Assembly: GCF_009805705.1 (NCBI RefSeq)
Contig: NZ_VSMB01000006.1
Coordinates: 62,001-126,000, forward strand
Direction: 5' to 3'
Source of the DNA: Ruania rhizosphaerae
GTDB taxonomy: Bacteria; Actinomycetota; Actinomycetes; Actinomycetales; Beutenbergiaceae
DNA: 64,000 nt
The translations under genes and the position numbers were made by a program. Below the pieces are notes generated by a model. It did not search any database and had not been told where the DNA came from. It saw only the letters and a program-made list of their open reading frames with translations. Shown here piece after piece: positions 20,169-23,884 of the stretch; position 1 is the first letter of the stretch; each line of letters starts with the position of its first letter.

Positions 20169-20873
20169 TCAGGTGCGCTCGGGCGGATCGGTGGCGACAT
20201 CGTGCGGAGCGGGGGCGGAGCCGCCCTGCTGGTCGCCGTAGCCCGCGTCCAGGACGGCGTCGAGGATCCGCCTGTCGGTGAAGACCCCGTCGGTGTAGAT
20301 CTCGAGGCTGGGCAGCATGGACTGCTGCATGAAGGTGCGCATCATGGCGGCGGGGTCGCGTGGCCCGTCGCTGCTGGCTAGCCGGATCTGCAGCAGCAGA
20401 CCGCCCAACCCTGCGTAGGTGAGGTAGCGGGCCCGTGCTTCCGGGTCGCGGCTGGGTGTGATCATTCCCGTCCGTTCACCTTCGGCCAGGTAGTCGACGG
20501 CGTCGGCGACCATGTGCTCGATCAGGTCCCGCGCCAGATCGCCACCGTCGATGAGGCTGGCGATCACGTAGCCGGTCAGTGGCGCGTACTCCTCCATATG
20601 GGCGAGTCGCTCGAGCAGGCTCCGCGTATCGCTGGTCACCGATTCCATCTTGACCCGGCGTACCTGCGCGAGCACGTGCTCGTCGCAGGCGGCACGCAGG
20701 CCGTCCTTGGACCGGTAGTGCCGGATCACCAGCGCGGCGCTGACCCCGGCATCGGCGGCGATCTCACGGAGCCCGACACCGAAGCCGTCAATCCCGAATC
20801 GGTGCACCGCGGCAGTGAGGATCCGCTCGGGCGTGCTGCCCGAGCCGCTCTCCCGTCCTGCCGCATCTGTCAT
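20169..20873 (-). CDS. TetR family regulator, probable repressor of the adjacent ABC exporter
   Basis: A 234-residue TetR protein. The HTH is PERILTAAVHRFGIDGFGVGLREIAADAGVSAALVIRHYRSKDGL. The C-terminal domain is helical, with a polar tail. A near-ideal operator, GTGTAAACG-TT-CGTTTACAC, stands 7 bp before the ATG, so autoregulation is very likely. The ABC exporter genes follow on the same strand after 185 bp and are the natural target. The inducing ligand is unknown. Confidence 0.88.
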   Translation of the reverse strand: MTDAAGRESGSGSTPERILTAAVHRFGIDGFGVGLREIAADAGVSAALVIRHYRSKDGLRAACDEHVLAQVRRVKMESVTSDTRSLLERLAHMEEYAPLTGYVIASLIDGGDLARDLIEHMVADAVDYLAEGERTGMITPSRDPEARARYLTYAGLGGLLLQIRLASSDGPRDPAAMMRTFMQQSMLPSLEIYTDGVFTDRRILDAVLDAGYGDQQGGSAPAPHDVATDPPERT

Positions 20874-20900: not shown

Positions 20901-21382
20901 CTCGAGCAAGTGGGCATGTCGCGGTGCCGCGGGGTGTGCGGTGGGTCCGCCGTCGCTGGGTGCCACTTCTCGTCGGCTCGGTCGCGGGATTCTGACAGAG
21001 AGTGGCACGTATCGACTGCATGGTTCCGCGGGAGGTGTCACCCGTCGTCGGTTGGCTGACGCAGGAGCGACATCGGGTGGCACCGAGCGTGAGCGAGTCG
21101 CGGTGGGTGCCATGGCTTGTCGCTCTGGTCAGGTGCGAGCGACATCGGGTGGCACCCAGAGCTGTCGCAACCTGCGGTAGGTGCCAGTCGATGTGGGTAT
21201 GTGGTGTCGATACCGACATCACGTGGCACCTACCCTGGGCGCGTTTCGGGAAGCGCGGGCGTGTACCCCGCTGGTGCGGCGACAAGTCGGTCGGGTCCGG
21301 AGCGCGCTCCCGATGCACATTCGTCCACAACCCGGGGTCGCCGTGCGCGCGCTGGTGCCGGCGGGAGCACCAGGCTCGATCC
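20901..21382. other. Spacer before the DUF559 gene, filled by palindromic repeats
   Basis: No gene is supported. Open frames through this stretch are rich in Arg, Trp and Cys and repeat the same phrases, because the DNA is repetitive. Positions 20960-21234 are the first hairpin cluster. The remaining 148 bp up to the GTG at 21383 show no clear promoter. Confidence 0.6.
20960..21234. repeat. Palindromic repeat cluster 1 (four hairpins, GGTAGGTGCCA/TGGCACCTACC family)
   Basis: Four consecutive hairpins have one design: an outer stem of GTGCCA type, a 2-5 nt symmetrical internal loop, then an inner stem of GTCG/CGAC type. They are 20960-21008, 21034-21084 (11 bp, 2x2 loop, 4 bp), 21104-21158 (9 bp, 5x5 loop, 7 bp) and 21176-21234 (11 bp, 3x3 loop, 5 bp, mismatch, 5 bp). 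Right halves at 20992-21013, 21067-21088, 21139-21160 and 21213-21234 align over 22 nt as YNGACR, five variable bases, then TGGCACCTACC or a close variant. Confidence 0.85.
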
Positions 21383-22312
21383 GTGAGACGACCGCGCCGC
21401 TTGCCCGAGAATCTGGCCCATCGGCCCTTCGCCGTCCGGACTGCACTCGACCAGGGGGTCGATCCGGAGCGGCTGCGCCGTGGTGACATCACAGCACCAT
21501 TCGTCGGCACACGCGTGCCAGCAGATCGTGAGCCCACGCTCCTCGATCTGTGCGCCGTGCTCACGGAGCGGCGACCCGAGTGCTTCATCTCCCATGCCAC
21601 TGCGGCTCGGCTGCACGGTCTCCCGCTTCCTGCGCGGTTCCGCGATGATGACGCGATCGACCTGGCACTGTTCGATCCGGGTCGATCGCCGCGGATCACT
21701 GGTGTGCGCGGGCATCATCTCGATCGCCGCTACACCTCGCTCGTGACGGTCGAGGGTGTGCGAACGTGCTCACCGGTCTCCACCTGGCGCCAGCTGGCCT
21801 GGATGCTGAGCCGAGTCGAGTTGGTTGCCGTCGGCGATTCGTTGTTGCGCCGGCAACATCCCCTGGCCACGATCGACCAGATGAGGTCCGCCGTCGACTC
21901 GCTTGTCGGGGTTCCTGGTCACGGACGGCTGTATCGGGCCTTCCTCGACGTGCGACCGGGTACGGACTCGGGGCAGGAGTCGCAGTTGCGGATCGACCTG
22001 CGTTCGGCTGGTCTGCCGGAGCCGGAGATCAATCCTGCGATCCGCGATGCACGAGGAGAGTTCATCGGGTATGCGGACATGGTCTTCCGAGAGCAGCGCG
22101 TCATCGTCGAGTATGACGGTGACCATCATCGAACTGACCTCGACCAGTACCGCAAGGACGTCAATCGGCTCAACGCCTTCGGGCGCGCGGGATGGTTGGT
22201 GATCCGTGTCAACATGACGCATCGTGGCCCCGATCGCGCCGTGATCATCCAAGAGATTCGCGATGCGCTGATCGAGCGTGGCTGGCGCGCGGGCCTGCGC
22301 ATATCGGGGTAG
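21383..22312 (+). CDS. DUF559 (Vsr-like endonuclease fold) protein embedded between palindromic repeat clusters
   Basis: About 309 residues if the GTG at 21383 is the start; upstream codons are repeat DNA. The N-terminal half resembles AbiEi-like winged-helix proteins found before DUF559 domains (CFISHATAARLHGLPLP, then VRTCSPVSTWRQLAWML). The C-terminal half is a DUF559/Vsr-like PD-(D/E)XK nuclease core: VIVEYDGDHHR near residue 242, then DVNRLNAFGRAGWLVIRV. The acidic residues of VEYDG are the expected metal ligands. No partner gene is present on either side. Repeat clusters flank it at once on both sides. No function is proven; a nuclease that acts on the repeats is an inference. Confidence 0.75.
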   Translation: MRRPRRLPENLAHRPFAVRTALDQGVDPERLRRGDITAPFVGTRVPADREPTLLDLCAVLTERRPECFISHATAARLHGLPLPARFRDDDAIDLALFDPGRSPRITGVRGHHLDRRYTSLVTVEGVRTCSPVSTWRQLAWMLSRVELVAVGDSLLRRQHPLATIDQMRSAVDSLVGVPGHGRLYRAFLDVRPGTDSGQESQLRIDLRSAGLPEPEINPAIRDARGEFIGYADMVFREQRVIVEYDGDHHRTDLDQYRKDVNRLNAFGRAGWLVIRVNMTHRGPDRAVIIQEIRDALIERGWRAGLRISG

Positions 22313-22329
22313 ACGTCGAAACCCTGGAC

Positions 22330-22566
22330 GGTGCCGGGGGCGTCGTGGCCCGACAGTGGTCGGTGGAAGTCGGCCGACAGCAGCTGGCACCTACCTGCGC
22401 CCGCCAGGCGCCAGAATCCGTCGGTCCGGGAGATCGATGCCGACGTCAAACGGCACCTACCGGGTTGTGTAGCTCGGGTAGGTGCCATGTGTCGTCGCGA
22501 GAGTGGCGATATACCGACGAGCAGTGGCACCTACCGGGGCGGTACTGACGAGAGGTGGCACCTACC
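22330..22566. repeat. Palindromic repeat cluster 2 (three hairpins plus a half-site)
   Basis: Hairpins at 22330-22391, 22407-22457 and 22477-22535 share the layout of cluster 1. The last is the best: GGTAGGTGCCA pairs with TGGCACCTACC, then a 4x4 internal loop, then TCGTCG/CGACGA. A lone right half lies at 22545-22566. Right halves at 22374, 22440, 22514 and 22545 align over 22 nt with those of cluster 1. The last copy contains the stop codon of the cysteine desulfurase gene (22562-22564). Confidence 0.85.
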
Positions 22567-23866
22567 CGCTGACAGCGGCGACCGCCTCGGCCACCAGCGG
22601 TGCGGCTTGGTGGGTGATAGCTGCCAGCTGGTCGCCGCTGACCTCGCCACCGGCCGTGAACCGGACCGACGTCTGCGCCACCTCCGGCTCGATCCCGCAG
22701 GCCAGTAGCACGTGCGAGGGCTCATCCGATCCGGCCGCGCATGCGGAACCGCTGGAACTGATCACCCCCCGCCGCTCCAGTTCCAGTAGCACCGCCTCGC
22801 CTGAGACGCCGGGGAAGCAGAAGGAGGCGTGATTCGGTAGCCTGCCTACCCTCCCGACGGCGGAGCCACCCACTCGCGCCGACGTCGCCTCAGCCTGGGA
22901 GTGGGGAGGCGGGGTGGTCTCGTCAGCCTGGGCATCCGGGCGAGCCGCTGCCTGATCGGCCGGGATGTGCGGTGCAGCGGCAGGACCCGCGTCGTCCCGC
23001 ACGTGCGATGGGCCGGTGAGCCGCGCCGTCGGGACCTGCGTGAGCACATCGGCGGTGAAGGCAGCCATCGCAGCCCCGACCTGGGCCACGCGCTCCTCGC
23101 GCCCGGACTCGGCCAACGCCAGCGCCACCCCCATCGCCACCGCCCCGGCGACGTTCTCGGTCCCCGACCGGCGATCGCGCTCCTGGCCGCCGCCGTGCAG
23201 CACTGGCTCCACCGCCAGCCGCCCCCGCAGGAACACCACCCCGATTCCCTTCCCGGCGCCCACCTTGTGCCCGGAGAGGGACAGGGCGTCGACCCCGAGT
23301 GCCCGCACGTCCAGGCTGAGCCAGCCGGCTGCCTGGACCGCGTCGGTGTGCATCAGCGCGCCGGCGTCGTGGGCCACGGCCGAGAGCGCCGCGATATCCT
23401 GCACGGTCCCGATCTCGTTGTTCGCCAGCGCCACACTCACGAGCGTGGTGTCCTCACGCAGCACCGCGCGTAGCGAGTCGGGCGTCACCACCCCCTCGCG
23501 GGTGACAGGCACCATCGACACCTCGAACCCGTGCACCCGCCGCAGGTAGTCCACCGACTCCAGGACGGCTTCGTGCTCGATCGCGGCCGTCACCAGATGC
23601 CGGCCGCGCGGATTGGCCAGGGCGAGGCCCTTGATGGCGAGGTTGGCGCCCTCGGTGCCGCCGGAGGTGAAGGTCACCTCGCTCGCCCGCCCGCCCAGCA
23701 CCGCTGCCACCGACCTCCGAGCCCCGGACAGCCCGGCCGCCGCCCGTTCCCCCACACCGTGGTGGCTGGAGGGGTTGCCGAACTCACCGGTCAGGTAGGG
23801 CCACATCGCCTCCAGTGCCTCCCGGCGCATCGGCGTTGTGGCGGCGGCATCGAGGTACAGGTTCAT
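22562..23866 (-). CDS. Cysteine desulfurase (NifS/IscS family) of the NAD operon
   Basis: A PLP enzyme of 434 residues that removes sulfur from cysteine for Fe-S assembly. LYLDAAATTPMR starts the fold. The PLP lysine is in LSGHKVGAGKG, and the persulfide Cys in SSGSACAAGSDEPSHVL. Between VRDDAG and PNHASFCFPG there is an insert of about 50 residues rich in Ala, Pro, Gln and Thr, not found in typical family members. The ATG at 23866 is preferred over the GTG three bases earlier. It is the last gene of nadA-nadB-nadC, 18 bp behind nadC, so it probably serves the 4Fe-4S cluster of quinolinate synthase. Its 3' end runs into palindromic repeat DNA. Confidence 0.92.
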   Translation of the reverse strand: MNLYLDAAATTPMRREALEAMWPYLTGEFGNPSSHHGVGERAAAGLSGARRSVAAVLGGRASEVTFTSGGTEGANLAIKGLALANPRGRHLVTAAIEHEAVLESVDYLRRVHGFEVSMVPVTREGVVTPDSLRAVLREDTTLVSVALANNEIGTVQDIAALSAVAHDAGALMHTDAVQAAGWLSLDVRALGVDALSLSGHKVGAGKGIGVVFLRGRLAVEPVLHGGGQERDRRSGTENVAGAVAMGVALALAESGREERVAQVGAAMAAFTADVLTQVPTARLTGPSHVRDDAGPAAAPHIPADQAAARPDAQADETTPPPHSQAEATSARVGGSAVGRVGRLPNHASFCFPGVSGEAVLLELERRGVISSSGSACAAGSDEPSHVLLACGIEPEVAQTSVRFTAGGEVSGDQLAAITHQAAPLVAEAVAAVSG

Positions 23867-23884
23867 CACCGGATCACCTGCACC

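Follow-up and report, generated by a model that had tools for sequence, protein, structure and literature searches.

A DUF559 nuclease gene flanked by its own palindromic repeats in Ruania: a candidate nuclease-repeat pair

In the 64-kb stretch of DNA analyzed here (the window), taken from a host genome of the genus Ruania (G000), a nuclease gene of the DUF559 kind lies among palindromic repeats, and this gene and the palindromes probably form a cognate nuclease-repeat pair, with the elements acting as double sites that are copied, converted or kept. The support, read from sequence, comes from the gene's own repeats on both its sides, the dispersal of these repeats, a repeat type that follows the nuclease type over an allele swap, a 59-nt geometry and the predicted fold of the protein. 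From these observations we infer binding by an AbiEi-like half of the protein, cutting, and any copying or movement of the elements.

The nuclease gene is bordered by a TetR-family gene and a class-V aminotransferase gene, which we take to be NifS-like, both on the opposite strand (Table 1). Elements 1 to 4 are located upstream of the gene and elements 5 and 6 downstream. The original prediction described seven hairpins and a half-site: repeats do stand on either side of the gene, and the recount gives six 59-nt elements and two half-sites. The motif TGGCACCTACC, at one mismatch or fewer, is found at 10 sites in the window, as against 0.72 expected and a maximum of 4 in 100 shuffles, and eight of the ten fall at 21102-22566. 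That no similar repeats surround any other gene is true inside the window, whereas genome-wide the repeat family is dispersed.

Table 1. Features of the nuclease-repeat locus (positions in the window)
Feature	Position	Strand	Remarks
TetR-family gene, left boundary of swapped module	20169..20873	-	PF17933 E 1.6e-38, PF00440 E 7e-9
Element 1, 59 nt, degenerate arms	20955..21013	.	ssDNA fold z -3.0
Element 2, 59 nt, degenerate arms	21030..21088	.	
Element 3, 59 nt	21102..21160	.	ssDNA fold z -4.0
Element 4, 59 nt, perfect 11-nt outer arms	21176..21234	.	ssDNA fold z -5.2
Nuclease gene, 309 aa	21383..22312	+	AbiEi-like N-terminal half fused to DUF559 (Vsr/I-Bth0305I-like) nuclease domain
AbiEi-like region, residues 1-191	21383..21955	+	proposed half-site reader
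Nuclease domain, residues 194-301	21962..22285	+	
Lone half-site CGAC-N6-TGGCACCTACC	22375..22395	+	
Element 5, 59 nt	22403..22461	.	
Element 6, 59 nt, perfect 11-nt outer arms	22477..22535	.	ssDNA fold z -5.6
Lone half-site	22546..22566	+	
Class-V aminotransferase gene, right boundary of swapped module	22562..23869	-	PF00266 E 8e-67

An element is made up of an inverted pair of half-sites, CGAC-N6-(T/C)GGCACCTACC, the cores of which are nearly invariant. In the loci scanned from G000 and G015, these type A elements are arranged as inverted doublets at fixed spacing: in 41 of 44 neighboring (-,+) pairs of half-sites the starts are separated by exactly 38 nt, which corresponds to 59 bp, and in 19 of 25 (+,-) pairs by 36 or 37 nt, giving tandem elements a period of about 74 nt. 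The 59-bp geometry is equal to that of the double operator in the Rv2827c promoter, 23 + 13 + 23 bp (PMC7319586). When folded as single-stranded DNA, four window elements reach z values of -3.0 to -5.6 and one dispersed element -6.4. Compensatory changes between the arms, proposed earlier as a check on the hairpins, did not appear: over 51 elements, pairing between the two arms of an element is no better than between arms drawn from different elements, and a conserved hairpin was rejected on this ground. Two half-sites a constant distance apart are consistent with the data, a conserved hairpin structure being unsupported.

The long DUF559 genes, to which the nuclease gene belongs, form a widespread, little-studied and uncharacterized family. 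Alignment with orthologs suggests that the gene starts at the GTG at 21383. The Vsr-like DUF559 nuclease domain recognized in the original prediction is borne out by a Pfam match to PF04480 (E 6e-5) and by the AlphaFold2 model of the 309-aa protein (pLDDT 93.5), in which VIA-align detects an AbiEi-like N-terminal half and an I-Bth0305I/Vsr-like nuclease domain; residues E199, D232, E243, D245, D259, and R262 of the latter are conserved. Structural alignment of the model with AbiEi gives an rmsd of 5.8, and a Foldseek search with the predicted protein returned no PDB match at E ≤ 1e-3, AbiEi being absent from the best 50 rows. Judging from the model, the AbiEi-like half, which is absent from the original prediction, is the likeliest reader of the repeats. 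The window protein matched no NCBIfam family, no PADLOC entry and no transposase or recombinase family in Pfam. A known defense system was rejected on the lack of a PADLOC match for the window protein, although 3 of 48 homologs have weak matches to NCBIfam antiphage_ProA (best E 2e-4). The nuclease gene is single-copy in G000, where the next best homologs are at most 36% identical.

Beyond the window, the 11-mer has 21 exact matches in the host genome against 5 for its backwards control, and the longer type A motif (≤1 mismatch) has 59 against 15 in G000 and 87 against 16 in G015. Within the family set of 24 genomes including G000, only these two, which carry the same nuclease type, are far over control; the other 22 contain 1 to 24 matches (controls 3 to 17), and in G001, the highest of them (24 versus 8), none of the matches listed are paired at the distance typical of an element. 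Sixteen further type A places were inspected in G000. According to a crude ORF caller, self-inconsistent on the orthologous pair L317/L321, 12 of the 16 are within 65 nt of a gene 3′ end and 2 are inside an ORF, as are 4 of 10 type B places (see below); one of the 16 (L328), a single half-site inside an ORF, is probably background.

Dispersal was also assessed for 15 repeat units of this kind, searched against 11 genomes; the figures that follow hold among the matches listed, a part of 425, so per-unit counts are lower bounds. The units have 2 to 74 matches per genome, and at least 10 of the 15 have matches away from their own gene, while those of L068, L022, L019, L073, and L053 have none among the matches listed. 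Units match their own genome, again among the matches listed, except for the G000 units of L084 and L065, which also match G020; G020 possesses a relative of the L084 protein, 70% identical. Several enzyme-repeat pairs are present per genome. The G000 DUF559 paralogs at C38:27491 (L065), C22:100510 (L084), and C33:117527 (L068) have their own, unrelated flanking repeats, which for L065 and L084 are likewise dispersed.

Close relatives provide a natural allele swap at this locus. The nuclease gene keeps its place between the TetR and NifS-like genes in G000, G015, G017, G019, and G020. G015 is the more distant from G000 (TetR 80%, NifS-like 74-78% identical), yet the two nucleases are 77% identical. 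Between G000 and G017, the TetR and NifS-like proteins are 89% and the flanking DNA 87-90% identical, yet the DNA alignment stops near 20913 and resumes near 22650, with only a weak antiparallel match in the nuclease gene in between; the G017 nuclease is 48% identical to that of G000 and inverted. The type B motif, CGACRRWTYGNGGCAAC, has 23 matches in G017, 16 in G019, and 19 in G020, compared with 10 in G000, 4 in G015, and 0 to 5 in the other 19 genomes (controls 0 to 2). The genome-wide repeat type thus goes with that of the nuclease: G000 and G015 have type A, and G017, G019, and G020 type B. The nuclease gene of G019 (L199) looks disrupted, in two parts in different frames, and the genome still has its 16 type B matches. 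In G021 and G016 (L344, L343), the space between the TetR and NifS-like genes is filled by unrelated genes, which by eye look like a zinc-type dehydrogenase and an MFS transporter.

Eight of the type B matches in G000 make up four elements, all located at places orthologous to type B places of G017, with flanks 87-94% identical; at one of them, G017 keeps a single half-site within one mismatch. Because G000 has no type B nuclease (next homolog 36%), these four elements look like orphan relics of the other type. Comparison of eight dispersed G017 type B places gave these 4 relics in G000 and 2 places with type A there (L008, L334); the remaining 2 had no counterpart among the loci fetched. The L008 place carries four type A elements in G015 and type B in G020. 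At the L005 place, the element is absent from G017, G015, and G020, G017 having ~25 nt where G000 has ~100 nt; at this one empty place aligned in detail neither a clean target duplication nor a clean insertion footprint was found. The swap concerns one locus in one genus and is stronger evidence than the likeness of repeats between close proteins.

Association of such repeats with DUF559 genes, suggested earlier as a check in related genomes, is observed in many lineages, with controls near zero. For each long DUF559 gene, flanks of up to 500 nt on either side were compared for a common repeat, with a cut of score ≥20 chosen after the nulls were seen. A cross-flank repeat was detected in 32 of 60 family loci (70, less 2 duplicates, of which 60 of 68 have both flanks ≥300 nt), in 30 of 63 order loci (70, with 30 taken automatically and 40 hand-picked down the E-value list, less L164 without an HMM match, the duplicate L128 and short flanks), in 35 of 74 named loci (usable among 80 fetched from Cryobacterium, Agromyces, Herbiconiux, Microbacterium, and others), and in 8 of 27 usable phylum loci. 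The rest, 28/60, 33/63, 39/74, and 19/27, score below 20, so that roughly half show no repeat. As controls, the 179 neighboring genes of the named loci give none, the 630 mispaired flanks one, and the 115 G000 genes two; one of these two, at L009, lies next to the repeat family. This control gene, L009:1496-2179, has a cross-flank score of 45.5 and GGCCCTGGCCTGGCACCGG-type repeats beside it. At a looser cut of 16, the positives are 45/60, 39/63, 49/74, and 10/27; among the controls, 5/115 G000 genes, 6/179 neighboring genes, and 10/630 mispaired flanks pass. A first, less strict run of the test on family loci gave 43/50 at ≥15.5, its mispaired null not yet being free of related loci. The loci are related, hence Fisher values overstate significance.

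The window and many other loci show an enzyme gene between copies of its own repeats. Homologs elsewhere have repeats that differ from those of the window and are typically ~60-nt palindromes. Strong palindromes are present in both flanks of 28 of 74 named loci versus 3 of 198 control genes, and 94 of 224 of them span 55 to 64 nt. At L063, L064, L034, and L053, short-unit arrays with opposite directions on the two gene sides replace the ~60-nt palindromes. Of the eight phylum-level positives, two come from short proteins, whose repeats (low-complexity or parS-like) are doubtful; setting the short proteins aside, 6 of the other 17 loci are positive. Ten phylum-level loci of short DUF559 proteins (<160 aa) show no convincing repeats, the three that score ≥16 being L290 (low complexity), L295 (parS-like) and L292 (16.0); the L295 flank repeat contains TGTTTCACGTGAAACA, which we take to resemble a ParB parS site. 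Another motif, the presumably DnaA-box-like TNTCCACAG, is present on either strand in the 150 nt that precede the start, typically at a distance of about 48-60 nt. It occurs in 94 of the 209 genes of the family, order, and named sets, whereas 313 control genes and 28 phylum-level loci have one case each, and the downstream side 1 of 234; the window has a degenerate copy, GTCCACA at 21323-21329, upstream of the nuclease gene.

Among 105 loci with a defined repeat unit, some proteins being 95-99% identical, the repeats are similar in 10 of 11 pairs at ≥80% protein identity and in 5 of 8 at 70-80%, versus 6 of 42 at 60-70% and 2 of 5,399 under 60%. Such tracking of protein identity is expected for cognate pairs, and shared descent of the flanking DNA would contribute too; since common descent also predicts likeness, close-pair similarity alone is no proof of co-recognition.

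How the pair could work is suggested by the predicted fold and the element geometry. Each element would be a double recognition site composed of two inverted ~21-bp half-sites (CGAC-N6-nGGCACC...), with the CGAC cores about two helical turns apart. Most likely the AbiEi-like half would bind each half-site as duplex DNA, and two subunits would thereby bring two Vsr/I-Bth0305I-like nuclease domains onto one 59-bp element; the promoter-side elements may double as autoregulatory operators. Nuclease action at the elements or at preferred intergenic places could then lead to elements being copied, converted or kept across the genome, while the gene would stay single-copy, as reported for REPINs and RAYTs. 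A broader claim, which we offer tentatively as somewhat short of probable, is that AbiEi-Vsr fusion nucleases of Actinomycetota drive many independent replicator families: each would recognize a private ~59-bp duplex double operator, a DNA break there or nearby would let copies spread or be converted, and an allele swap would bring turnover of the entire palindrome population and leave orphan relics.

Counting against a cognate pair are the roughly half of homologs that score below the cut, the five units with no match away from their gene among the matches listed, the L005 place, the disrupted G019 gene in a genome with 16 type B matches, the loose structural fit to AbiEi, and the upstream elements insofar as they fit plain operators. 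The main rival is an operator regulon, in which the AbiEi-like half would be an autorepressor with the palindromes as its operators at the gene and genome-wide, and the nuclease domain would act elsewhere and spare the repeats. It agrees with the predicted AbiEi-like N-terminal half and with the position of the strong upstream palindromes, at a median of 95 nt before the start codon. For AbiEi and Rv2827c, binding to 23-bp inverted repeats in the promoter of their own gene is described, in Rv2827c with a 59-bp geometry (PMC7319586). It does not readily accommodate the strong downstream palindromes, at a median of 22 nt past the stop codon, the 12 of 16 dispersed type A places close to gene 3′ ends by the crude caller, arrays such as the four G015 elements at one site, or the replacement of one element type by another at two places between close relatives. 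The elements past stop codons and the replacement along with the nuclease type oppose the regulon as the whole story, and we regard it as unlikely.

Host selection rather than copying would maintain the repeats if they were chromosomal marks, recognized or spared in defense, repair or chromosome organization. The fixed geometry, nearly invariant cores, several pairs per genome, the resemblance to the fold of a repair enzyme, and the weak antiphage_ProA matches (NCBIfam, 3/48, best E 2e-4) are compatible with such marking, but the window protein lacks a PADLOC match, copy number among the matches listed ranges from gene-flanking only to many places, and close relatives differ by the loss or replacement of repeats, so that this seems improbable. 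Terminal inverted repeats of an insertion sequence, with this gene as its transposase and the dispersed copies as MITEs, would explain the repeats on either side, the gene-less copies, and a module that differs as a unit between relatives. This ordinary transposon appears very improbable given one gene copy (other G000 matches ≤36% identical), the missing target duplication at the single empty place for which a detailed alignment was made, a gene that keeps the TetR/NifS-like locus in G000, G015, G017, G019, and G020, and the lack of a Pfam transposase or recombinase match for the window protein. Terminators or hairpin-forming noise, close to the gene by accident, would suit elements that fold better than shuffled DNA and often come after stop codons, but the near-zero flank-test controls already contradict this, the repeat type tracks the nuclease type over the swap, and the arms do not covary; we give it hardly any credence.

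If the cognate pairing is true, REPIN-like genome repeats would have a second origin unrelated to the first, and a widespread uncharacterized gene family would gain a possible function. The enzyme-repeat pairing is readable straight from sequence, and the natural allele swap with its orphan relics makes repeat spread and persistence testable by comparing close relatives. A search for DUF559 paired with repeats in the open-licence PMC literature, where 14 papers mention DUF559, returned nothing.

Among known proteins, the I-Bth0305I homing endonuclease and Vsr have a fold like that predicted for the catalytic domain. Unlike I-Bth0305I-type genes, the present one is free-standing between TetR and NifS-like, beside its own repeats and not in an intron or intein, and there is no sign here of homing or mismatch repair. 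Caulobacter VsrA carries a DUF559 domain (PMC12907096). Short DUF559 proteins have the domain in common, without convincing repeats at the short phylum-level loci. With AbiEi/Rv2827c of the type IV AbiE toxin-antitoxin, the protein shares an AbiEi-like predicted fold, inverted half-sites near the gene, and, for Rv2827c, the 59-bp half-site pair geometry (PMC7319586). It differs in being fused to a nuclease and in having repeats on both sides and genome-wide; its neighbors are TetR and a class-V aminotransferase, and it is not an AbiE toxin-antitoxin because no AbiEii (DUF1814) toxin gene adjoins it. Nor is it an ordinary insertion sequence, as the gene is single-copy, the next best in G000 being 36% identical.

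The closest behavior is that of REPIN/RAYT (TnpA-REP), with dispersed inverted doublets, repeats on the flanks of an enzyme gene present once, more than one distinct pair in a genome, and enzyme and repeat that co-diverge (PMC3116915; PMC8266576). Unlike there, the enzyme is an AbiEi-like half with a Vsr/I-Bth0305I-like nuclease, not HUH/Y1, and conserved single-strand structure is not seen in the 51 elements. Among the 24 family genomes, the Y1/HUH transposase PF01797 is present only in G003 and is lacking in the other 23, including G000, so a RAYT in the host genome was rejected, and the system is not a member of REPIN-RAYT because the defining HUH enzyme is absent. Of the RAYT-REP-like partnership with a non-HUH nuclease initially proposed, the association, the Vsr/I-Bth0305I-like fold and the missing Y1/HUH domain hold, while the confinement of the repeats to the gene and the conserved hairpin fall away. 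The pairing of this kind of enzyme with its own repeat families has no counterpart in the open-licence PMC papers searched, though its behavior resembles REPIN-RAYT.
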